A program made the position numbers and the translations under genes. This document shows, one piece after another, positions 10,571-62,705 of a stretch of DNA of 64,000 bases. The first letter of the stretch is position 1. Each line of letters opens with the position of its first letter. Source of the DNA: Cyathus striatus (taxonomy: Eukaryota > Basidiomycota > Agaricomycetes > Agaricales > Nidulariaceae). Location: positions 2,480,001 through 2,544,000 of the forward strand of contig JAOVFP010000004.1 of assembly GCA_025738555.1 (NCBI GenBank). The letters are read 5' to 3'. Below the pieces are notes generated by a model. It searched no databases, was not told the origin of the DNA, and saw only the letters and a list, made by a program, of their open reading frames with translations.

Positions 10571-13500
10571 TGGTGTTGGTAGTTGCTAGGATGAATACTG
10601 TGTCCATTAATGTTGTATACAGCTGGGTGGACAATTTTATGAGCCATGGCTTACATCAAAAGTACACACTGCCTTGGTCCTACCACATCACTTTTGACTC
10701 CTGGATGTTCCTTCGTGCTAATAACTGTACACAAATTGCTATTATTGACAGTGATGACAGCACCGCTGCTTCATGTTTTGAATGCAGAAACCTTGAAAAG
10801 ACAGCATATCTACAGGGGATCATCAAACGATTAAACAATGGGGTATTGGAGACGTCACCACTTGCATATCATGGTTTTAGTGGCCTTGAGGAGTTGCTAC
10901 ATCAGAAAAACAAGACTATTGAATTTTACCGGCTTCGTGGTTTAAATCAGGCAAAGAAATTGCTCATGAATGCAAAGTCCTTCAATAACCATAAGTGACT
11001 CTTGATGGCAATATCTAGTGGACAAGTCAATCATGTGGATAGGCTCATTAGCATTGGACTTCAACAAGGGAAAAGTATTGAGGCTATCTATGACTCATAT
11101 AATAATGCAGCCAAAGGAGTATATAGCCCAAAAGGTTATACTGAGGAAGAAACTATGAAGGCACTACTCGCATGGAGACTTACTGGAAATTGTTTTGCTC
11201 ACATAAACCACAAAGCAAATGGAGCACCAAGTGTTTCATACCTGCGAACACGATTGATCATGTCACCACTTATACCATCTTGTGGGCCACCAGAAATCTA
11301 TGAGATTAAGTCTAATCTTGATGAAAGCATCAAGAGCATAACTCAAGTAATCGAAAACTATTTGAAGCCAAATCAGGTTATCCATGTAGTTCTTATGTTT
11401 GATGAAATTGTGATGGAGAAAAGGATCCGCTGGGACCCAAAAACAAATTTATTCTTGGGAGTCTGCAGGGAACACTCACATCGAACATGAATACAATTTA
11501 TTAATGAAGACGATATGAAGGAACTATTTAAAAATCTTGACAGTGATATTATTCATTATGCCAGCAAGGTGAGAGTTTTATGTTGCATAGCCTGTTGCTT
11601 TTCAAGACTAAACAATCTGTTCTAGGCTACAGTGGTGGCTACTGGTGCTCTCTGCAAAGATAATAAAATATATCCTGCCCAACCAGTAATGGTATCTGGT
11701 GACTGTAAATGCGAGTCTGCGCAGGAACATGCTACTGTTATTCAGACAGTACTCAATGAGGTCAATTCATTAAAGGATAAAACAAGATTTCATGTTGTAT
11801 CAATAGCTTCTGATGGTGAAACTTGACATGGTTCTGCCTTGGCACAGCTGGCATTCAAGAGAAAGCTTGGAGCAGACTCTCCAATATATCCACTGCTCAG
11901 ATTCCTAACATTTTTAGACTTTCATGTGGGCAAAGATGACATTACCATTGACAAAGATTTCAAACACATTATCAAACAACTCCAGAATCTCTTTATGCGT
12001 GAACATGGTGTTGTTATTAATCAGCGTCGCATAACACCCCAAATAATTATTGGCCAGCTCAAGAGCGAAGGAATATCCACTGATCACATCTGGGCAATAT
12101 TTAATCCTGAGGATAAGCAAGATGTAAAATTGGCATATGATATGCTAAGTAATATCTGGAGTTTATCATGCTCTTCCAATGTTTTAAAGCCTGCATTCCA
12201 AGAGAATCAGAATGCACTGTGGACTCTTGGAAGGTTGATATTTCATTTGGTTTTCCCTTACCTCTGTGTTGATCTTTCACTGTCGGAGCAAATCGAACAC
12301 ATTAGTGCTGCTGCTCATATCAGTCTTGCACTATACCGGCTTGATGGAAAGGATTTTTTTCCAACCAATCTATACATTGATCTAATGCTCAATATCAAGA
12401 ATGTGATATATTCTGTCGCTAAAGCCATAGTTGATGATCCAGATGGTGAATTCTGGATAATCTTACTCGGAACTGATTGCTTGGAGGCACTGTTTGGCAT
12501 TCTTAGAACAAAGGTTGGAAACGATGCAAATTTGGATATATTGCAACTGGTATCACGAATATCTGGTACAATTGAAGTCTCAAATATTTTGGCTATGTAT
12601 CCACATTTTGATTGCTCTCCTCGTCGACTTAGGCTTCCAGCCTTAACATGCGAGGCCACAGTTATTCCTGATAGTGCAGACCATATCAAACCTAGCTGTT
12701 GGAGAGGCAATGTCAAAGTAAAGAATGTGTCACTTCAGACATCCTGGAATCAAGGTTGAGAACTTGCAGAAAGCGAATGTGAATTTATTAAACCTATTCT
12801 CAAACAAATGGAGCAGGAAGGAGCTGACATTCTCTCTCCTAATGGAGTGCTTCTAATAAATGTACCTCACAATGCAGATGATGTGGACATAAGCCTTGAA
12901 GAAACAGCAGAAGCAGTGCCACCTCCTGCCAAAGACACAGAAATTTGTATTAATGTTGAAGACCAATTACTAGCCACAAGTAATTCTGAGTTTTCATGTG
13001 ACTCAAATTCAAAAGGAATGGTCATGTTTGATGGAAAAGAAACAGCAAAAGCAAGGGCTCTATCACAATTTAGTAAATATCGGAAATCTGCAAGCTCAAC
13101 TGACCAGCTAAAACGAGTACAGTCACTTGCATGATATCAAGATAAATCTGACGTAACTGAATCATTTTTCTCCTTGGATGATGGAGATGATGCAATACTT
13201 ATAGGTGATCCTGTTGCAACTATTCTCTGCTCAGAAAATCGCTTCTGGCTGTGTATAGCAGAGATTAATGGCTTACAAGTTGATGGAAAATCAACTGACT
13301 GTATCAACTTAAAATTGCTTTCAGAAGAGATTATATCTGTCTCTTACCAAGTTCTTGGACTCAAAACAGCAGATTCAAATGATGATCCTGAAGAAATATA
13401 TGACTGGAGAACTTATTCTATGGCTTATGAACAATCCTTCATTGTTCCAGGACGATTAATTCAAGTGGTTGACCCAGTACTCTCAAAAACACATCGCAAA

Positions 13501-46804: not shown

Positions 46805-49800
46805 TGTACTTTAGAATGGAAGAGACAAGAGGATGATGCTGCAGATGACGGAGCTTAAGGCGGGAGGAAGTGATGTCATAGTGGCGAGGTGTGATCGATG
46901 TGATCATCGACGTCCGGGATATATGGTAATGTGGGGCGGGTGTACATAGTTGTTTGACGACATTGCTAGAACCTTTTAGTGGAGTGGAGTGTGTAATGAG
47001 TTCGATAAGCACTTATGAAAACCTACTGTACGGACAAGAGTCTATGTCCCGACGTTGTAACCCCAGTGTAAACTAAAAGCACTTCCAAATGAACAAAAAT
47101 CGTCAGGCTACAGAATTAATCATAGTTGAGTACCTGGACATATGCCTGTTAGGCACGTTCAAAGGTCCCATGGGAAAGTCTTCATGGCCATTTCAAAAAT
47201 AGCACGATTCTGCATGCCTGCTTGGAAGCAGAAGAAAAGCGACAGAATTAACCCTATCGAATTCGGAAGTCTGAAAGATAAGTCCGTGCCATTCACTTAG
47301 ACCTGCAACGAAGGACGACTCGTCTTGTTGCGGAGTTAGCGTGACATCTTGCCAGCGCCGAGCGATAAGAACCAAATACCTGTAAAGCACGGCTATACGA
47401 ATAATCTTTATCATTTCGTCCAATGTCCCTACCTTAAAATATTTCGAATCAGCAATGAAAAATAGAAGAGACAACTACAGATGCGCCTGAGAATGACATG
47501 AGACGTTCTGAACAGCCAAAGGGTCCAAGGATAGCATTTCTGGTGCTTAGGATGGAACAACGGACATGTTACATAAGTAGCCAGTGAATTGGGGGTGACC
47601 AAACTGTTATCTAATTTCTAGGTCTTGACTCTTGACATGGCACTTCCGCTGCTGCCGAGGCACCGATCGTCGAAGGACGCGACAAGCTAACCTGATACAG
47701 GCTACGAGGGCCTTGCGAAGGCCACTCATAAGTGCGGTATCATTCCAACTTCGGCGTCGGCCTGCCGATAAATGAATGATTATTGATAAATTGATGATAA
47801 GTTTAAACGGAACAGACATACTAAATATTGACGTGGGGCTATGAACATCTCGGCATCGCTCTTTGCACTGTCGAGGTATCAATTATTGAATAACTCTAAA
47901 TGCAACCTAAGAGATTCCAGCTTCGGCGATCGTGACAACAACTTAAATAATGATAGAGATACACATTTTTGTTATTATATGTCGGACAAGACGTTTGATA
48001 ATCTAGCCTTAGGCTCATCAAATCCCCTCCCATGATTTCACGTGGTCTATGTCTATTCCGGATAGGTAGTACCTAAGGCTAAGGTAGCTCTATGCGAGCT
48101 ACAGTATCACTCGTGTTGGCTTACCAATAATATTAGTATGAAAAATCATACTTATCAACAGAATACAATACACCTCAGACAAGGGTGAATCAGATCGTTG
48201 TAAATATGGTACAACCCGATGTATGTAACAATTAGAATAGCTGTTTAAATATATTAAGTGTCTGATTTTCGAGCAAATTTTGAATATGCACAACAATATG
48301 ATAACCATCTGATCCATGCAAAATACTTACAATAAGATCCATGATCCCATCCGATCTAGGCCAATCGGAAATTTTTCGGGGGCTCGGTTCATGTCACACA
48401 TTTAAATTCGGTGCGAAACAATTGGAACAATAGACAGATTTATTACTCGTTTTAAAATTTGCTAATGGATCTGGCACCTTACATATTTTACAGCATATTC
48501 TAATTATTAAGGAAATCGGGGTGCACCATATTTACACTGACCCGATTTAGGCCTGTCTGAGGTGATAGTGTCTTGACGAGAGGAGGCTTCACCCTGGGCT
48601 CTCTCTTCAATGCAAACGCCGTCGAGGTGTCAATCATTAAGCTCGAGTGGCACTAAACCCGGGCTACCTTGAGCATCAGTGTCATTCTACCGTTGGTCAC
48701 GTCGGTCTGCCAACAGTGAAGCTGTGTTCAGAAGGGCCAATTTTAAAGTGATAGTTATTTTTGACGAAGTATAGCAATCCATCATGTATTACTTACTTTG
48801 TCAGGCGTATAAATCTATTATCTTGGGCACAACTTTCGTTAGTATTGAATGATAATCATTGGAGCTCGAAGCCAAGACAATGCATATACGAATCATTTCA
48901 GCTTCGGCTTCAACTTTCCGTTAGTAGCAAGTTAGTAGGCTTGATATATCCCAAATATGAATGTCCTGACGTATTCGTTGGCGTCATGGTCTTGCTATTG
49001 TCACTGTCAAATATCAATCTTTTAGTAGCTGTACAACTAGCCTAAGACGTAAGCACCCGTCTCATTTCATCGGCTCTAACTATAACATACTTCAAACTTT
49101 ATACCATGTGAAAAATCACGCGAATGAAGTATGTATCTGCGCTCAAAAGTGGCATGAGAGGCATCAAAAGAATTGCGGTGCATCTCAGAATAACCTGAAA
49201 GCGGCGTGCTATCGATGTCGCCACAATCATTCCTTGCAGTGCTGTTAGTCTACCTCGACAAATTTATCATGGGAAAGTGACGGGTATTGTGCGCATGCCA
49301 AAAACAAACATAATATTTCAAAGTGTTAAGTGCCAGTCAGTGCACACCACTTCGACAAGGTGGCAATTCCTCGACCTCTCTATTCCGTAGGATGTGTGAA
49401 AATCATTGAGGATAAAGTATGGGAGCTGATCATCTCAGTTTGTATCATTCTGCTGTAGTTTTACGCCTATATCAATTCGCGGAGAAGGAATGAAAGTATG
49501 GGGAGGCACTCAGGATCTTGTTATAGTCAACACCAATCGCTTGCTACTATCGGTGCATCTACATCATAATATCTCCCAAACTTGTCGCCTGCTTACCTTG
49601 ATAGTCCTATAAATACCGCACTTTTCTCCCGGACCCCGGTGGGCCCTTTCGTAGGCTTGCCACGATTTTGTTAGATTGAGCTATGGCCGAACAGGTTAAT
49701 GATGTGCACTTGAGCTCATGATTAGAAGGAATGTGCATCTGTCGTAAATCGTACTTTGGTTAATGACGGTGGGTGTGAAGACACGAAGAGGGAGACTGGT

Positions 49801-50907: not shown

Positions 50908-52992
50908 CTATAATTCGTCTCTACTCAGCCTATTTCTCCTTGTAAGTGTTGCCATTAATCTTTGTGGCTTATGCATAAACCCTTCAACGGTCGGCATACT
51001 CTGCTCCCTTAGCTCTATCTTGTAATGAAGCAACATCATCGCCAAGATCAGGCGCATCTCAATGAAGGCTAAACTTAGATCGAAATCAGTTTGTAATTTC
51101 TCAACACAGCAGTGAAGCACATACTTCCGTCCTAGCTGTGAGAATAATTGTCAATATCAAGTTTTTTCAGCACACAAAATAGGTCAATGACAAACACTTA
51201 CACAAGCCCTTGGACCCCGCCCAAATGTTAGAAGATATGGCTTTAGATCATCCGAATCTAACCATCGTTCTGGTCTAAAATTCTCTGCATCACCCCAGAT
51301 CTCCTGGTGTTATTATATTAGTGCATTTATTAGGTATGCGATTGTCGAGTATTATACCTACAGGGTCATGTTGGATGGTGAACGCTGGTATGGAGACCTC
51401 AGTCTATAGACAGAAGTAATCAGATTCCTGGAGACGAGTTGGTAGTGGTCTTTGCGTACGCCTTCCGGAATTTCATACCCACAACAAACTATTCCTCCAG
51501 TTGGAACCACTCTGTGAAGGCCTATCGCTGTTGTAGCATGATATCGAAGTCTGAGTTGAGTGATGTGAATGCCGTGAACTGGGTTCGAATTTGTTCACCG
51601 ACGTACCCTTCGTAGATGACTGCGTCAAGATATGGTATATTCTTAACGAGATCGTAGGTCAATGATCTATCACCAATTTCTGATTCCAAGTTCTCCACCA
51701 GCTTAAAATAGACAGGTTGATGGGTGAGCGTTAGGAACATTATTGCTGCTAAAGAACTTGATGTTGTATCAGACCCAGCAATTCTATCTCACTTTCTTCA
51801 GCGTGATGGGTAAACATCAGCGAAATATAACACTTACAGTAATGTTACTGTTTCCGCGGTCAACTCGACAATTGATTCAGTTGTGTGTACATCAACCATC
51901 TCTCCGTGTGCATCGATTAGTTTTGTAAGCAGATCGGCACGGCGAGTTTGTGCCTCTAAACGTTTCATGATACACCGACGGGCAAAGTCTGCAAGGCCAA
52001 CTGACGATTTACATCCCTTCTGGAATAATGGATCTGGAATCCATTTTGCTATTTTACCTAAAATTGGCCAAATTCCGATTATAGCTGACAGATGTTCGCG
52101 CTGATTATAACAGTTGTGTCAAAAAAACTGCAGAAATAGAAAAGTTGCGGCGATACCTCATCAACCAGTGAAATAGCATGCTCTTGGTCTATTTTTCCAT
52201 CAGAACGCTGAACTTCGACGATATCCGAACGCTGTAGTAAGTCAATAGCTCAGTGCTAGTTCATAAAAAGTAACTTCAAAGGTACCTTATTTACCATTCC
52301 GATTGCTTCCCCAAAAGCCAAGTCGGAGAGTATGTCGAATGCGAGATGGTTCAGCCATTCAAGTACATCTATCACTTCTCCCGTATCACTGATCTTATTT
52401 AGCTCCTGAAAGAATTGTTGCAGAGAATTCTCGATTAATGCAGTGCATTTCCGTAACGACTCGTAGGAGAAGGCCCGCGAAAGAAGTTTACGTTTTCTCG
52501 AATGTTCATTACGATCAGTGGTAGAAAATACTGACGGCGTTTCGCAAACGAATGCATCGTAAAACTTGGATTTGTCGAGCGCACGAGTGCCTTGTCCGAA
52601 GACAGTGTCTATCTCTGTATAATCTGAAATTGAAATATGACGAGGTGATATACGAACTATCTTTCCAAATTTCTGAATTTGTGCTCCAATTAGCATTTAC
52701 TCCGACATGATTATATTAAGACGAACCTTGTGTAACTCATTTACTGCAATATATCTCTTACCCATGCGAGCTTGGTACGCTAACCAAGCAGGAGAGAGCC
52801 TTGTAATAAATGGACCAGGTATTTTACTGAGGGGATCGCGCCTCTTTGAATTCCAATGTATGAAACAGATAATGCATGCAGCAGCATACAATGCTCTAAG
52901 AAAATTATGAAGGTATCATCGTAAGTGATTTTCAGCGAAAAGGGGGTCTCTACACACAATTGCCTATAGTCTTCTGTAAGATAGAACAACAT
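50908..52992 (-). CDS. Cytochrome P450, CYP53-like (benzoate hydroxylase type)
   Basis: Splicing gives a complete P450. The proposed start is MLFYLTEDYRQ at 52992 joined to a membrane anchor ALYAAACIICFIHW and the proline-rich hinge DPLSKIPGPFI. FGKIVRISPRHISISDY and KFYDAFVCETPSVFSTTDRN, then EHSRKRKLLSRAFS, follow the pattern of benzoate 4-monooxygenase-type P450s. The I-helix oxygen-binding motif is IAGSDTTSS (about 51775). The K-helix ExxR is EGLR, formed across an intron at about 51540-51590. The PERF-like motif is FRPERW (about 51275). The heme loop FGRGPRACLGR has its Cys codon at 51202-51204, directly before an intron. The C-terminus ends at 50908. No stop or frameshift is needed. The likely role is to hydroxylate an aromatic intermediate of the neighbouring cluster. 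The start exon and about nine introns were placed by eye. Confidence 0.87.
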
Positions 52993-53951
52993 ATCTGCGA
53001 AATTGCCTTTGTTAAACTGATGTACGAGGTTTAGAACGAGGGGAATGGTTAAGATATGATGTCGGTCGAAATGTTCATTTATATATACGCTCCCTGTACT
53101 TTTCCGCACTGTCGGTATCATTTGTTCGGACGAAATATGTGCTTTATTGGTTACCTAAGCTGTGATTCCATGGATGTCAGTCGCAGTTAAGTTAGCAATA
53201 AATGTAATAAGTCCTGAAGGCGCAGAGTGAACGAGACTTAAACATGTCTTTCTATGCATAGCGTTACCCCATCCTTCCGTAATTGAATATATATTCTGCA
53301 GCATACAATGAACGAATTTACTTATAATATAAAGTATTTGAACGTTATGAATTGTACATTATGGAAAGATGCTGAAAAGGTACGCTACCGAACCACCAGC
53401 ACTTTTAAGGTAGCAAATTACTATAAAGGTTGCCATCTGGTTGAATCATCCCGGCATCCCGAAGGAAGTTTATGCTAAGGAGGGTATCTTCATTTCCAAT
53501 GCATGCATACATAGCAGAAGCTATTCATGGTGAAACATCTGAGATCCGTGCCAATGTCGGAAGTAACTGAATGCGATGGTTTTACTTATCAATGACGTAA
53601 CCATCGGGGCGCTCATGCCACTGACAGTAAGGTTTGAAGGGTTGCAGGTTAAGCTATACAAGGGTGACAATGGACAAGTTTACAAGAAGGAATAAAGTTA
53701 AGCAAATACTATACCCTGAGTCATTTTTCATTGATGCATTTATTGCATATCAGTGTGACAAATAAACTTATTCTCAGCACAGATAAGTTCATATACATGC
53801 CTGTAAAAATTCTCATTTACTGTTTTTCCCGTAGGCACGTCCCCGTCAAAGAGTGAAGTGACCTTTTTAATCACTACTATCGACAAGATATATAGAAGTA
53901 GAATGAGTGATCAGGTTCCCGCTATTTCATATACGTTCTCAGGAGTCAGAT
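52993..53951. other. Intergenic region between P450 and oxygenase
   Basis: About 960 bp holding the P450 promoter side and the oxygenase 3' side. No further gene, RNA or repeat was recognised. Confidence 0.55.
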
Positions 53952-55346
53952 CTAGACTGCAGCTTTGATGTGTTCAGTTCCCCTGCTTTCGAGGTATGCG
54001 TCAACTCTCTGTAAGTTAAATATAATTAGTACCGCGTGATTGTCTCAAAGTACTTAGTACTTACTTTTTTATTATCGGTTCTCCACTTACTCTGCCTGCG
54101 ATAAAACCAATCCTTCGCAGTAGCTCCAGGTCGATAAATGGAGGGATTATCACTCTTAGAAACAGATTCAGCTATAATGTAGCTTTCGCTCTCAAGGGCG
54201 TTAAGAACCGTGGAGTTCCCGGGTCGACTGAAATAAACCAAAGACCACCTTTCATATTTTGATTGAGGTCCCGGTGGGGGGCTAGTATGAAGGGTAATAT
54301 ACTATAAGAGGAGGATGAGCAAGTGCAAGACTTACACCACACGATGCACACATGATTTTAGAATTCCACCGCTAATAAGGTTCAAAGCGTCTCCAATATT
54401 ACATATAGCGTGTCCTTGGCGAGGCTACCGTAGATTAAATAACTAATACGAACTGCTAGTCAATTTTATATGCAACGTACTATAACATATTTCCAAACTG
54501 TGTCACCTGGCAGAAGAACCTGCAGTCCTCCTATTTCATTGATCAAAAAAGACAAGCTTATATTTAATATAGCAACGTTAGCAACTTGAAAGAATGTATT
54601 TGATATAATAACAAACCTTCCAAAATCTGTATGAGCACCCAGAGCAATTTTATCTTCGTCGGGTTTACTAATTATTGGAACTTTGATGCACCTTGCTTCA
54701 CTAATGCTCGACTCTTCAATTGAATGTAGGCGTCCCAGCGAACCCACAGGTAGATCAAGATATTCATTAAATATCTCGATAAGTGTTTTCGTGATACCGA
54801 CACATTCATTCACAAATGGCTTTACGACAGTTTCCATGCTGGTGCTTATTGGCTCTGGATATTTCTGATGCTGAACTTCGGGAAATGACAGTGCGTCATC
54901 CTTAGCAATGTTTATGAATTCAGCTATATCCTTTGATCCTTTCAGATCGACATATGTTGCTCCTGCCGCTTTGTATCTTCAACAAGGGTTATTAGTAAGG
55001 TTTGATCTAAATAATTGAATTATATACCCAAAAGAACCGCCAGAATCACCCTGCCAGAATTTCATCTTTTCCTCGAAGTCAAGTTCCATGGTTTGACGTC
55101 CTATATCAAACATAGACGTTATGAGATTGTCAACACTATGGTTCTTCAAGCTAAATATGGAGGGCCTAAACTGAGACTGACGAAAAACAGCAGAATTGAT
55201 TAAACGCACTACCAAAATCCTAAAGTCGTCGCTGCTTCCCATAACTTATGCTTCTCAAATGAATCGCCAGTCAATAATAATGCATAGTCAATGACTGGCA
55301 AAGAAACAACAGGAATGTCACTGGGAAAAGGAGGGACGTCTGGCAT
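53952..55346 (-). CDS. 2-oxoglutarate/Fe(II) oxygenase, isopenicillin N synthase type
   Basis: Starts MPDVPPFPSDIPVVSLPVID at 55346 and ends RVDAYLESRGTEHIKAAV at 53952 after splicing about six introns. The N-terminal DIOX_N region (LWEAATTLGF joined to LKNHSVDNLI) precedes FGYKAAGATYVDLKGSKDI and the FINIAKDDALSFPEV stretch. The metal ligands of the core are in GAHTDFG (His codon 54631-54633, Asp codon 54625-54627) and SCVHRVV (His codon 54344-54346). Arg-x-Ser for 2-oxoglutarate is RWS (54250-54242). GGLQVLLPGD is the typical strand before the distal His. All key residues are present and no break is needed. The family oxidises small molecules in the cytosol using 2-oxoglutarate (isopenicillin N synthase itself does not). 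The substrate here is unknown. It is divergent from the halogenase. Confidence 0.87.
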
Positions 55347-55751
55347 AGTTGAGGATACCAAAGGAATCAGTTTGGATCCGTGGTAGATACTTAACTCAAC
55401 ACTCACATGAATAAATACCGTATACAAACATATAAACACAAACAAGCACGTTGTTGAAAGACCATATACTTAATCGGGCCGTGACATTCCTTGACATACG
55501 GATACATCAAGCGCGTGGTGTGTACTATAGTATATTTACGGACGATAGAAATCAAAGTGAATACAATGTCCGAGGTGATGGTGCGCTCATCAAATGCATC
55601 TTAAGATATCCCCATCCAGAGGGTTATGCATTTATGTATTACATTCTCACAGTTGCATCCTCAAATATAGTGAGATCCATCTGAAACGTATGAAGTTAGG
55701 GTATAAGATGCCTAATGTTCAATTCTTGTGGTATTCAGATATATCACCAAA
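55347..55751. promoter_or_regulatory. Shared divergent promoter of oxygenase and halogenase
   Basis: About 405 bp separate the start codons of the two divergent genes (55346 minus, 55752 plus), so they probably share regulatory sequence. No clear TATA box was identified on either side. ACACTCACATGAATAAATAC lies 60-80 bp from the oxygenase start. Confidence 0.55.
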
Positions 55752-57780
<2,029 letters not shown>

Positions 57781-58564
57781 GGTTCCCTGCTTCGTTCCTC
57801 AGATTATCATAATCACATGTTTGTCAAGTAAGAATATGGTACTTCTCTCCATATTATGCTCTACATTCGGCTGTAAATTCAGAGGATAATCTATTTTTGT
57901 TAAGCTACTGGCGAAAAAAGAGCCTTATACTTCATGCGCTAAAACAGCGCCGACATGCGGCCCGGAAAACCCGCCAGCTTTCGATGCCACCGCTTAGGGC
58001 CTCAACATGATGATACACAGTTACACTAACGCACTTCTCCTTGCGTATTTATATCATTAATGCACTATACCACTAAACTACTACTATGAGTGATATTTGA
58101 TGAGGCATGGTGTGCTCGCGTCCGCGGCCGCACAGTCTCCTATATAAGTCGCACCCTAAAGATGAAGCGTCAATCACCAGGCTACTCGTGACATTCAGTG
58201 ATTTGGTCCTTGGTTCTAACATTGGTCAATCTATGATATCAGCGCGGCATTATGTGAAATACATCATAAGAATCCCAAATTTACATACTCCTCGATATTA
58301 ATATGAGAATTTCGACTTCGTGACTGGGCGCCCTGGTTGAAGGAAGCTGAACCTAAATAGCAAGGTTTATGCCGATCAAATAGCTTTCTCGGTCATCTTG
58401 TCGGGGTTTCCGAAAGGCATTATAGCCGCAACACATGTCTATAGTTGTGTAGGACTATTCTTAATCGTATGCTCCTCGGTTGGACCCACCAAGAACCCAC
58501 AGCCACACAATAAACCATAAAGGAGGCAGCATTGAGCATCCATGAGTAAGCTCTTACCGCTATC
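57781..58564. promoter_or_regulatory. Intergenic region upstream of the NRPS-like gene
   Basis: About 780 bp. CTCCTATATAAGTCG at 58137-58151 contains TATATAAG, a possible TATA box, but it lies about 415 bp from the ATG and would need a long or spliced leader. A NotI-type GCGGCCGC sits just upstream of it at about 58124. No gene was seen. Confidence 0.4.
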
Positions 58565-61500
58565 ATGTCTGACCCTTTCCTTCTGCAAATTCCTAAGACC
58601 TTTTCTTCCAGTCCTAAATTCAATTTTCACATACCACCGCTCGACGGTTCCTTGACGGTTCCGCAGATTTATGACTGGCACCTTGAACATAACGCTGATT
58701 ATCCGTTTTTTACATTTTACTCGGAGGGGCAACATACAACCTTAACCTATAGCTCTGTAGTGCCAGCAATGCATCGAGCGGCGAAACTTGCTTCTTCATT
58801 TGATCGAAATGATAACGCAAGACCAATAGAGACAATCGCTATCTTATCTTCGTCTGGTAAGCGCTGTACAAAGTATTCCCACACCCTCTCATTATGTGAT
58901 CAGATACTGTCAGCTATTTTAGCACGATGGTTGGGATCATGCAACTGGGGGTTCCAGTTTTCCCGATATCTCCAAGGAATTCCGCTCCTGCAATTGCTAA
59001 GCTTTTGGAGCTTACGCATGTTAGCCACATACTCGTTGGAACGGAACCAGTCCTCCAGAAGTTGATTGCTGACGTTGTAAACTTAACACGCAATCACCAT
59101 CGACTTAAAGACTTACGAATAGGAGACATGTTCTCTTACGACCAGTTGTTTACAAAAGTTGAAAAAGAGGACTGGAATCCGGTTACTCCTTTGACGCATA
59201 ACTCCAGTACCGACTACCATTCTCCACTAATATACGTCCATTCCAGTGGTAAGTCCGATCCTGTAAGCAGCAAGCTGTTCAGTTATTTCACAAGTGTGTA
59301 TTAGGATCGTCTTCTTCTATGCCGAAGGCTATGAAATGGACACATGCTTCGCTTTTGCAAGTTGCTATAACACCGTGTATGTGAGATTCTACCAGAGTAA
59401 CTGCTATGTTCTCTAACCATCTCATCTCTACAAGACTTTGGAGCGTACGATCTCCGCGGCGAAATCTTTGGGATGCATCATATCCCCATGCCTCATGCAA
59501 TCGGCCTCAATTACCTTGCTTGGGCGGTAATATCAACCGTAATACCATGATTTTTGTATGTACAAACTAACAATAACATTAGACCAGTGGGATTATTCTT
59601 GCAACCTTTCCCCCCGGCAACACGCCCAGGATTCCGAATCCACAGATTGTATTGGAAGCTTTCCGCGAATGTGAGGTAGCATATTCTATCTGCCCGCCAA
59701 CTTTCCTGGAGGTAATAGTATGATTTTTTAAATCTACACACGCACTGATATCGACGCCCATTATTAGACCTGGTCAAAAGACCAAAATGCTATCCAACAA
59801 CTAACGAAGCTTAAAGGCTTGGTGATTACTCCATGTTGCTATTTACAAATTAATTCAGTTAATTTACGTCTGGATAAATAGGTCTTCGGTGGCGCTCCAT
59901 TGCGCAAGTCAGCAGGCGATAAGCTCGTCCAAAATGGTGTCAAAGTAATATCAATTCTCGGGTGGTGTGTGGCTTGTTGTTCTCCTATCGAACAGAGTTT
60001 AAACCATACCTAATAGCTCCGAAGGAGGTGTTATCGCATCGATGCTAACAGGTATCTACTTATTATATATTGGCTGTAGTTGACATTGACTCGCTGAAGA
60101 ATTTCAGGGAATGGACTGGGAATACATGTCCATTAATCCTCATTGCAATGCTAAATTCATCCCTGAGGGTAACGAGCTGTATCATATGATATTAGTTGTG
60201 CGTTGTGTAAACTTTCATTGCAGTAAATGGAAATCTGCACTAAATACTTTTATAGAGACAACCAACTCACGTGCTCTACGTGATAAACGCAAAACACGAA
60301 GGCCAAGACGCGTATGCAACCGGTGATCTTTACAGTCCACATCCTACCAAACCCGGGTTTTGGAAGATTCATGGAAGGGCAGACGATCAAATTACCCTGT
60401 CTACAGGGAAAAAAGTCAACCCCAAGTCTCTCGGTAAGGGTACAACCAGATGGTATCGAGATTCGTACTGACAATGAGCATAGAAAATGGCTTGAAGGAA
60501 CATCCATTAGTACAGATGGCGGTAGTATTTGGGACAGGACAAACACGAATTGGTATAATTGTTTCACCGGAGAAAAGCTTAAAGGATGACGGGGACATCT
60601 CCAACTTGATTGATTCTATCTGGTAGTTCGCCCCTCTAACTGCTCGAATTGAGTTAATCCCGTGTACATCCTAGGCCAAAGATCGAAGAGTATAACATTG
60701 TCTCTTCAACATACGCAAAGTTATTTAAAGAGGTCAGGATCTAGCGACCTCTGCATGTGATTATATGAACTGACCAATGCGTTTGAAATCTTGCAGATGA
60801 TTATTCTGACTACACTTGATAAACCAATCCCAACAACGGACAAAGGAACTATTAAACGTAATCAACTCCTTGCACTTTACGAAAAAGAAATACAGGATGC
60901 GTATTCCGAACAGAACCTCGGATCACAAGAAAGCGACATTGTTACGCCTAAAGATTGGACTTGTCAAAATTGCATAGAATTCCTGAAAGAGTTAATAAAT
61001 AAAATGCTTCCTATGCCAGTCAAGGACGAAACGTCTAATATATTTGATTATGGTTGTGACAGGTGAACTTCTTATGTTGCTACATCCAGCTCTTTACTAA
61101 TGAAATACCAGTGTGCTCGCTACTCGGATCAGAAACTCGATAGTAAACGCCTTCCGCCTCACCGGATTAGAAAAACTTGTCGGTTTCCTCCCACAGAATC
61201 TCCTTTATCAACAACCCACATTTTCTTCCCTCGCAAACTTTGTATCTGCCGTGGCACACAGTGATGGATCCTCGGAGAACTTACCTTCAGCTTCTGTAGA
61301 GCAAAGAAAACAATATTTAGAAGATTTGCGTCGGCGCTTATTGTCTCAAATTAACGCCAGGTACAACGGAGCGAGCAAGAAGAGTTCCAAAGACGTCATT
61401 TTGGTCACTGGAACCACTGGTGGTTTAGGTTCTCATGTTCTAGCTACACTGGCGTCCTCTGAGGAGGTTTCGTGGGTGTATGCGTTGAACAGACCGTCGA

Positions 61501-62705
61501 AGACCAGTTTGTTGTCGAGGCAGCAGGCAGCATTAGCGAGACAGGGACTCGATCCGGGCATTGCTACGTCCTCTAAGGTTGTACTCTTGGAATCCGAGCT
61601 TTCAAAAGACGTTCTGGGTCTCGATAAAGATGTTCTTGAAGAAGTAAGTTGGAAAAGTTTTTAGTCGGTCATACTTATTAAATTCGTCAAAGATTCTTTC
61701 GACTGTTACGCACGTCCTCCATGCAGGTACGTTCAAATACTTATACCTTATTCAAGTACTAAACGACTTTATTTTAAGCCTGGCAAGTCGATTTCAATCT
61801 TCCCTGTGAATCGTTCGAAGCAGACCTTGCGGGCGTCGTCTCACTTATCAACCTGTGCTTGAACTCTCGATTGCAGTCCCCGCCAAAGCTCCTTTTTGTG
61901 AGCTCTATCGGAATCTTCCAGAGAGGTAATTACCACATACCATACGTTCATAGATCACTCATCCAATGTAATCAGGCAACAACCACGAGGCTATAGCGGA
62001 AGAACCATCCACCGATCCCTCCCAAGCTGTAGGAATGGGATACAGCGAATCCAAATGGGTCGCAGAGTCAATTTTAACAGCAGTGTCTCAAACGACTCCT
62101 CTCCGTCCAATCATTGTTAGATTAGGGCAATTAGCAGGTCCACCTAAAGGCCCATGGAAAACGTCCGAATGGGTCCCGTCGCTCGTTAAATCGAGTATGA
62201 CTCTCGGATGGCTCCCGGAAGCACCCGGGGTACGTCCTTGGGTTCTGTAAATATTACTTAATGCTCATTGTATAAACAGGTAGCATCCTGGATACCAGTC
62301 GACATCGCCTCATCATCTCTAATCGAAATGCGCAATGCAGACGCTCCAATCGTCCACCTCGTCCACCCCAAACCGATCGCATTCAACAGCATCATGGGCG
62401 AGTTTGGTAAAATATTAGGCTTACCTTCGTGCGCTTACAGCGAATGGAAGTCAAAGCTTGTCGATTTGACCAAAGAGGGAAGTATCTCGGATACCATGAT
62501 GAGTGATGTACCGGCTTTGAAGTTGCTTGATTTCTTTGTGCATTTGGAGGATAAGGTGGAGGGCGATGAGGTATTTGGTCTTCCGACGTTGTCGACGAAG
62601 GTGTCGACGGAGGTTTCGAGGAGTCTTAGGGAGTGTAAGGCTCTTTCGGCCGGGGATGTTGAGGGTTGGGTTAGACAGTGGGAGAAGGCAGGATTTTTGC
62701 ATTAG
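58565..62705 (+). CDS. NRPS-like carboxylic acid reductase (A-T-R)
   Basis: From MSDPFLLQIPKTFSSS at 58565 to WVRQWEKAGFLH at 62705, with about 15 short introns and an estimated 1,050-1,100 residues. Adenylation domain: LIYVHSSG joined to SSSSMPKAMKWTHASL (A3, about 59226-59363), ILGCSEGG (A5-like), YATGDLYSPHPTKPGFW (A7) and GRADDQITLSTGKKVNP (A8, about 60375-60430). The A10 lysine is in PTTDKGTIKRN (about 60828). Thiolation domain: NIFDYGCDS, whose Ser codon is split by an intron (61061-61062/61112). Reductase domain: VTGTTGGLGSHVL for NADPH (about 61400), FVSSIG, and GYSESKW with catalytic Tyr and Lys (about 62037). There is no condensation domain. Known relatives activate a carboxylic acid with ATP, load it on phosphopantetheine and release it as an aldehyde. 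All motifs are intact. It is convergent with nothing and lies tandem to the halogenase. Confidence 0.9.

Follow-up and report, generated by a model that had tools for sequence, protein, structure and literature searches.

A 64,000-nucleotide stretch of the Cyathus striatus genome (assembly GCA_025738555.1, contig JAOVFP010000004.1, positions 2,480,001 to 2,544,000; hereafter the window) carries four intact neighbouring genes between window positions 50908 and 62705. They encode a cytochrome P450 (P450), a 2-oxoglutarate/Fe(II) (2OG) oxygenase, a flavin-dependent halogenase and an adenylate-forming carboxylate reductase of the adenylation–thiolation–reduction (A-T-R) type. We consider it likely that the four genes serve one pathway. 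More tentatively, and at somewhat less than an even chance, we propose from the chemistry of the enzyme families that this small, conserved locus, free of a polyketide synthase (PKS), converts an aromatic acid to a chlorinated 4-hydroxyaryl aldehyde or alcohol.

The four genes and their predicted enzymes

The gene models (Table 1) were built by hand from three-frame translations, with splice sites chosen partly from what each family should look like. All 41 of the 41 introns are GT–AG and 47–69 nt long (10 in the P450 gene, 6 in the 2OG oxygenase gene, 8 in the halogenase gene and 17 in the A-T-R gene), and the final models are free of internal stops. Gene models of another C. striatus strain provided an independent check of splicing for three of the four genes, while the 2OG oxygenase model is based on its own splicing and on paralogues in the same genome. 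A preliminary description of the window, made from the sequence alone, had reported four intact, intron-rich genes side by side with their catalytic residues present; both points hold, since all four models are complete and concordant with Pfam and the motifs sought were found in each protein. The computed intergenic gaps are, in gene order, 959, 405 and 784 bp, and the second of these, between divergently oriented genes, may act as a shared promoter.

Table 1. Coordinates of the four genes and the divergent intergenic stretch in the C. striatus window.
Feature	Position	Strand	Structure
P450 gene, benzoate-para-hydroxylase-like (CYP53-related) subfamily	50908..52992	-	11 exons, 503 aa
2-oxoglutarate/Fe(II) oxygenase gene, isopenicillin-N-synthase-like superfamily	53952..55346	-	7 exons, 352 aa
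Divergent intergenic stretch, 2OG oxygenase and halogenase genes	55347..55751	.	405 bp, computed gap
Flavin-dependent halogenase gene, RadH/ArmH-type	55752..57780	+	9 exons, 521 aa
A-T-R adenylate-forming carboxylate reductase gene (non-ribosomal peptide synthetase-like, NRPS-like)	58565..62705	+	18 exons, 1077 aa

The halogenase is 98.7% identical to the other-strain model over 521 of 521 residues without a gap, matches PF04820 (9.6e-29) and has RadH as its best solved relative (8gu0; E 1.1e-142, query residues 1–518 of 521). The FAD-binding glycine motif is present as GGPGG at residue 14 and the GWxWxxP motif as GWIWFIP at residue 222. RadH, which we take to be a phenol chlorinase, is the type member to which we assign this protein: a fungal flavin-dependent halogenase predicted to chlorinate phenols with FADH2. 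RadH is also named among phenol-type enzymes in the available portion of PMC9144378. Relatives in other species were collected by protein searches with the halogenase, A-T-R and P450 as queries and entered in hand-made tables, each row of which is a 90% cluster; all trees are quick ones with SH-aLRT support only. In the halogenase tree, the query belongs to a 16-row basidiomycete group (support 94) comprising Collybia nuda, Hypsizygus, Infundibulicybe, Pluteus, Hymenopellis, Mycena and Armillaria/Guyanagaster, which is nested in a group of 19 rows with Pleurotus and Hohenbuehelia (support 98). Lepista nuda, presumably the same species as Collybia nuda, holds one of the closest halogenases (66%) together with a P450 relative (56%).

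In the A-T-R protein, which is 95.8% identical to the other-strain model over 1061 residues without a gap, the Pfam domains AMP-binding, AMP-binding_C_3, PP-binding and NAD_binding_4 follow one another in this order. The carrier serine lies in DSV at residue 613, and TGTTGGLG and YSESK are found at 713 and 874; with domains and motifs of a carboxylate reductase in order, the enzyme type named in the preliminary description is borne out. The C-terminus (about 62610–62705) shows a mismatch, in that the last 31 residues of the window protein and the last 39 of the other-strain model differ as if read in another frame, owing either to a difference between the strains or to an error in the gene model. 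Identity with Lys2 was rejected: the other-strain model, 96% identical, scores 97.3 bits against TIGR03443, for which the cut-off is 1030.1, and the true Lys2 gene sits on another contig (C16:2735937–2740409). Both results argue against an L-2-aminoadipate reductase; a preference for L-2-aminoadipate was the contrary case raised in the preliminary description. Adenylation domains that activate amino acids retain an acidic residue where the amine binds. All 15 aligned A-T-Rs lack it (the query reads PMPHAIG), but this lack does not discriminate between substrates, because two of these rows are named 'putative aminoadipate reductase'. The best solved adenylation domain matches at 32.9 bits. In a tree of 53 rows, the query falls in a 12-row clade (support 100) that includes the A-T-Rs of Hygrophoropsis, Phlebopus, Pleurotus cornucopiae, Armillaria and Desarmillaria. 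Many other A-T-R-type genes are present in the genome, with 47 matches to the AMP-binding_C_3 model when counted by exon; among the A-T-R-type matches are pairs with equal or near-equal scores on opposite strands at C16 3.46–3.49 Mb and C22 2.01–2.04 Mb, which may be segmental duplications.

The P450 is 98.0% identical to the other-strain model, with one gap, matches Pfam p450 (PF00067, 1.8e-67) and contains the motifs EGLR, AGSDT and FGRGPRACLG. Relatives returned by the protein search are annotated 'benzoate para-hydroxylase', and identity to three ascomycete benzoate para-hydroxylases (bphA-type) is 40–43%, a value that sits on the line of the CYP53 family rule, by which members share at least about 40% identity with a known CYP53. 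Its clade is made up of C. striatus, Hygrophoropsis and Phlebopus (4 rows, support 95). The same genome encodes a canonical CYP53-like protein (C20:101362–104958) that is 49–51% identical to the three ascomycete bphA-type proteins and clusters with them (4 rows, support 100; the C20 row is long-branched). Since CYP53 enzymes also detoxify benzoate, the window genes could be taken for a primary or degradative locus in which a Lys2-like reductase is accompanied by a detoxifying P450 and oxygenase. The separate true Lys2 and the C20 gene can cover those roles, however, and a halogenase has no part in such metabolism; we regard this explanation as very improbable, and housekeeping benzoate detoxification was set aside because of the separate canonical CYP53-like gene.

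The 2OG oxygenase matches Pfam 2OG-FeII_Oxy (1.5e-15) and DIOX_N (2e-12), and its HxD...H and RxS motifs are present as H202-x-D, H259 and RWS. Its best solved relatives, out of 39, are thymine dioxygenase and an ethylene-forming enzyme; no isopenicillin N synthase (IPNS) is among these 39, and 0 families were matched in NCBIfam, a library built for prokaryote annotation. Of the earlier label 'isopenicillin-N-synthase-type', the 2OG superfamily is confirmed by Pfam, but neither a named IPNS family match nor a solved IPNS relative was found. Judged by these comparisons, the protein belongs to the superfamily, and no closer named relative turned up in the libraries tried.

Copies in the genome and relatives on shared contigs

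The P450 and 2OG oxygenase genes recur as neighbours elsewhere in the C. striatus genome, at C4:2811.6–2819.1 kb and C5:2765.5–2771.0 kb; in a third pair, at C4:2874.7–2878.2 kb, the P450 consists of one exon only, and a lone further 2OG copy lies at C4:2833 kb. Ratios of nonsynonymous to synonymous substitution rates (dN/dS), which are biased downward by the prior filtering of poorly aligned stretches, were 0.14 (437 codons) and 0.14 (454 codons) for the window P450 against two paralogues and 0.11 (261 codons) and 0.14 (334 codons) for the 2OG oxygenase against two paralogues; two shorter comparisons, over 50 and 69 codons, gave 0.30 and 0.19. Both the P450 and the 2OG oxygenase are under purifying selection. 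A truncated A-T-R relic with in-frame stops (C4:2859851–2860778, minus strand; 64–78% identity over residues 509–798) is located in the same C4 region as the P450–2OG copies. Because the pairs recur and the relic lies nearby, the P450 and 2OG oxygenase, and probably the A-T-R too, have a common history in this genome. The repeated pairs (C4:2811584–2878154 and C5:2764622–2770969), of which some are nearly complete and others partial, may form a family of small oxidation clusters specific to this lineage.

Turning to other species, two rows from one species were counted as sharing a contig where the longest contig behind each row had the same size, a definition under which misses are not proof of absence. 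Halogenase and P450 relatives share a contig in nine of the 28 species present in both tables: C. striatus (206502 bases), Hygrophoropsis aurantiaca (114305), Mycena metata (190524), Mycena sp. CBHHK59/15 (293552), Collybiopsis luxurians (819367), M. crocata (1260010), M. sanguinolenta (1606951), Favolaschia claudopus (2061054) and Hohenbuehelia grisea (2096480). Excluding C. striatus, a shared contig was found for 8 of 54 same-species pairs, where 0.7–1.9 would be expected with assumed genomes of 100–40 Mb. Halogenase and A-T-R relatives do so in five of 22 species (C. striatus, Hygrophoropsis, Pleurotus cornucopiae, Phlebopus sp. FC_14 and Leucocoprinus), and P450 and A-T-R relatives in two of 15 (C. 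striatus and Hygrophoropsis). In Hygrophoropsis aurantiaca, relatives of all three lie on the one 114305-base contig, and in P. cornucopiae the halogenase and A-T-R carry consecutive locus tags (0005282/0005283; contig of 1676884 bases). The A-T-Rs that share a contig with a halogenase all belong to the 12-row clade, except for the distant Leucocoprinus pair. Co-occurrence in other Agaricomycetes, which the preliminary description had named as a check, is thus seen for halogenase, P450 and A-T-R relatives, which recur on shared contigs.

Proposed pathway, alternatives and surroundings

In the pathway that we propose, the substrate would be an aromatic carboxylic acid, with benzoate or 4-hydroxybenzoate derived from phenylalanine or tyrosine as the likeliest candidates. 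The P450 would hydroxylate the ring, and the halogenase would chlorinate it next to (ortho to) the phenol, using reduced flavin, oxygen and chloride. The A-T-R enzyme would convert the acid to an adenylate and then to a thioester on the carrier domain, from which the aldehyde would be released reductively with NAD(P)H, and the 2OG oxygenase could supply one more oxidation. Either chlorination or reduction may come first, an order left flexible because the ilicicolin pathway draws reduction before chlorination with some flexibility (PMC9569342). From sequence we infer the aromatic acid, the position of the chlorine, the order of steps, the product, the co-regulation of the genes and the role of the 2OG oxygenase, and of these the acid is the least secure. 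Pfam was run on 40 hand-picked open reading frames (ORFs) around the genes (19 to the left and one to the right within the window, and 10 each from the 40 kb on its right and the 20 kb on its left), and in this sample, from which small split exons could escape, neither a PKS or terpene synthase nor a prenyltransferase or methyltransferase was found; the absence of a PKS and a terpene synthase reported earlier agrees with this. The preliminary description had envisaged hydroxylation, halogenation and reduction of an aromatic acid to a halogenated aromatic aldehyde; its gene set, the lack of a visible PKS and a non-Lys2 A-T-R stand, while benzoate as the substrate is weakened.

Several observations weigh against a single chlorinating pathway of this kind. 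The window P450 is only 37% identical to the canonical CYP53 of its own genome (C20) and falls in a separate 58-row basidiomycete set (support 95), apart from the canonical benzoate hydroxylases. By these comparisons it represents a related but separate subfamily; for its earlier designation as CYP53-like, the 40–43% identity to ascomycete enzymes is borderline, and it does not group with canonical CYP53. Because of these low identities to known and canonical enzymes, benzoate as the substrate is a lead, not a result. A shared contig, moreover, does not mean adjacency: the locus tags of the Hohenbuehelia grisea halogenase and P450 (6677 and 7195) are over 500 apart, and those of the Leucocoprinus halogenase and A-T-R (7139 and 7248) about 109 apart. 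In Phlebopus the halogenase belongs to a different clade and the P450 lies on another contig; with the halogenase in another clade and the tags far apart, respectively, the Phlebopus and Leucocoprinus halogenase–A-T-R links were discounted as weak. Only one of the 12 halogenase rows at 60–66% identity (near full length) shares a contig with a P450, that of Hohenbuehelia, and seven of the eight further P450-linked halogenases fall outside the query's 19-row group, six of them in a Mycena/Favolaschia/Collybiopsis group and one in Hygrophoropsis. Without C. striatus, halogenase and A-T-R share a contig in 4 of 44 pairs, against 0.7–1.9 expected; because this count alone is a modest excess, the case for halogenase–A-T-R linkage depends mainly on the three genes together in Hygrophoropsis and the adjacent pair in Pleurotus. 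A literature search, with subscription papers largely outside its reach, tied no halogenase to C. striatus, and no chlorinated Cyathus metabolite appears among the matches listed, as far as titles and the starts of abstracts tell. Known chlorinated anisyl compounds also need an O-methyltransferase, which is absent from the sampled ORFs.

A further point on the same side is that no halogenase match was found near the duplicated P450–2OG pairs; because of this, the pair can act without chlorination and is not tied to chlorination alone. Possibly, then, the locus comprises two modules acting apart, a lineage-specific P450–2OG oxidation unit and a halogenase with its A-T-R, which are adjacent by chance or through recent rearrangement. 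The three other genomic sites of the pair (one partial) are consistent with such a division, as is P. cornucopiae, where halogenase adjoins A-T-R and no P450 of this species is among the 120 rows listed, although at 90% clustering one may hide in another Pleurotus row. Yet halogenase and P450 share a contig in eight further species, Hygrophoropsis has all three genes, and the A-T-R relic lies near the duplicated P450–2OG copies; we judge two independent modules to be unlikely.

Another alternative concerns the substrate, which could be a larger phenol made elsewhere (an orsellinate-type polyketide, a meroterpenoid or a terpenoid aryl ester), with the locus adding tailoring steps in the manner of the freestanding Armillaria halogenases. 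ArmH1–5 of Armillaria mellea are, like the window enzyme, basidiomycete flavin halogenases and act on a free phenolic substrate, chlorinating free melleolide F (PMC9144378); they lie outside the melleolide cluster, whereas the C. striatus halogenase adjoins a P450, an oxygenase and a reductase. Armillaria/Guyanagaster halogenases belong to the query's 16-row group (support 94) and Armillaria and Desarmillaria A-T-Rs to its 12-row clade, and the ilicicolin A-T-R reduces prenylated orsellinate, according to the available part of PMC9569342. However, among the P450s this one falls on the side of the benzoate hydroxylases, a placement in favour of a small aromatic acid, and neither a PKS nor a prenyltransferase was present in the ORFs checked. 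A larger phenol thus seems to us improbable, and we prefer the conversion of a small aromatic acid by one pathway.

As for the surroundings, in this sample none of the 29 ORFs on the left (19 of the longer ones within the window and 10 from the next 20 kb) matched Pfam above its cut-off, which fits the earlier statement that nearly everything to the left is decayed. At 10999–11487 (plus strand) a TNP-like transposase RNase H domain is matched weakly, below the cut-off (E 0.0015), and an inverted repeat with 114-nt arms, 72% complementary and 166 nt apart, occupies 48171–48564, 2.3 kb left of the P450 gene. A glycoside hydrolase 31 (GH31) gene lies 0.9–2.5 kb right of the window (flank positions 925–2528), and beyond it are a KDZ-transposon-associated protein and WD40 and NACHT proteins; with GH31, KDZ-type, WD40 and NACHT among the 10 ORFs scanned, a longer cluster to the right is unsupported. 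About 7.2–10.0 kb right of the window is a minisatellite-like stretch whose translation repeats in several frames.

Known systems and chlorinated mushroom metabolites

The proposed chemistry has its closest described counterpart in the ascofuranone/ilicicolin clusters (asc, Ndi_Ili) of ascomycetes, in which, as described in the available part of PMC9569342, an A-T-R enzyme ('non-canonical NRPS') reduces an aryl acid to an aldehyde, and the aromatic ring receives its chlorine from a flavin halogenase belonging to the same superfamily as the window enzyme. AscB is counted among carboxylate reductases in the accessible text of PMC9605436, and proteins named ascD are about 51% identical to the window halogenase. 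A non-reducing PKS and a prenyltransferase form part of those clusters, neither of which was seen in the sampled ORFs here, and in C. striatus the A-T-R and halogenase are accompanied by a benzoate-hydroxylase-like P450 and a 2OG oxygenase. The pathway logic is less new than first thought, because ascofuranone/ilicicolin already pairs an A-T-R with a halogenase; the earlier claim that no described cluster has this gene set gives way for that pair, while the PKS-free set with P450 and 2OG oxygenase differs.

The predicted product type resembles the chlorinated anisyl metabolites of Bjerkandera, Hypholoma and Lepista, which are chlorinated 4-oxygenated benzoic acids, aldehydes and alcohols (PMC7036779 and PMC8181146, available portions); these known compounds are O-methylated, whereas no methyltransferase was seen in the sampled ORFs. 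Chlorinated benzoic acids and aldehydes are among the compounds that mushrooms synthesize de novo, an example being 3-chloro-anisaldehyde from glucose in Bjerkandera (a 1992 paper cited in PMC7036779), and the accessible text of PMC7036779 reports 3-chloro- and 3,5-dichloro-4-methoxybenzoic acids from soil associated with Lepista nuda. The literature search turned up no gene proven to make chlorinated anisyl compounds, tied no halogenase to them and returned nothing on basidiomycete chloro-p-anisaldehyde biosynthesis, nor on a benzoate para-hydroxylase with a halogenase. For the Hypholoma cluster proposed in PMC8181146, no halogenase appears in the gene list in the available portion, and the term 'halogenase' is absent from the main text of the C. 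olla genome paper (PMC11186289).

The strobilurin cluster offers a further comparison: the ring of strobilurin B is chlorinated and oxygenated, a pattern that a P450–halogenase pair could give. Cyathus is not, to our knowledge, a strobilurin producer. The published strobilurin clusters are without an obvious halogenase, as far as the available text of PMC6158276 goes, and the accessible portion of PMC11591248 did not confirm that Favolaschia and Mycena are linked to strobilurins. It is conceivable, if rather doubtful, that the halogenase/P450/A-T-R core of C. striatus and Hygrophoropsis, together with the pairs found elsewhere (halogenase/A-T-R in Pleurotus; halogenase/P450 in Mycena, Favolaschia and Collybiopsis), is the genetic basis of the chlorinated-anisyl organohalogens of mushrooms, and that the P450–halogenase pair is the ring-decorating unit for chlorinated strobilurins elsewhere. 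The locus may help to explain how mushrooms make natural chlorinated compounds, for which it supplies concrete candidate genes, with neighbouring relatives in fungi that can be cultured, such as Pleurotus.

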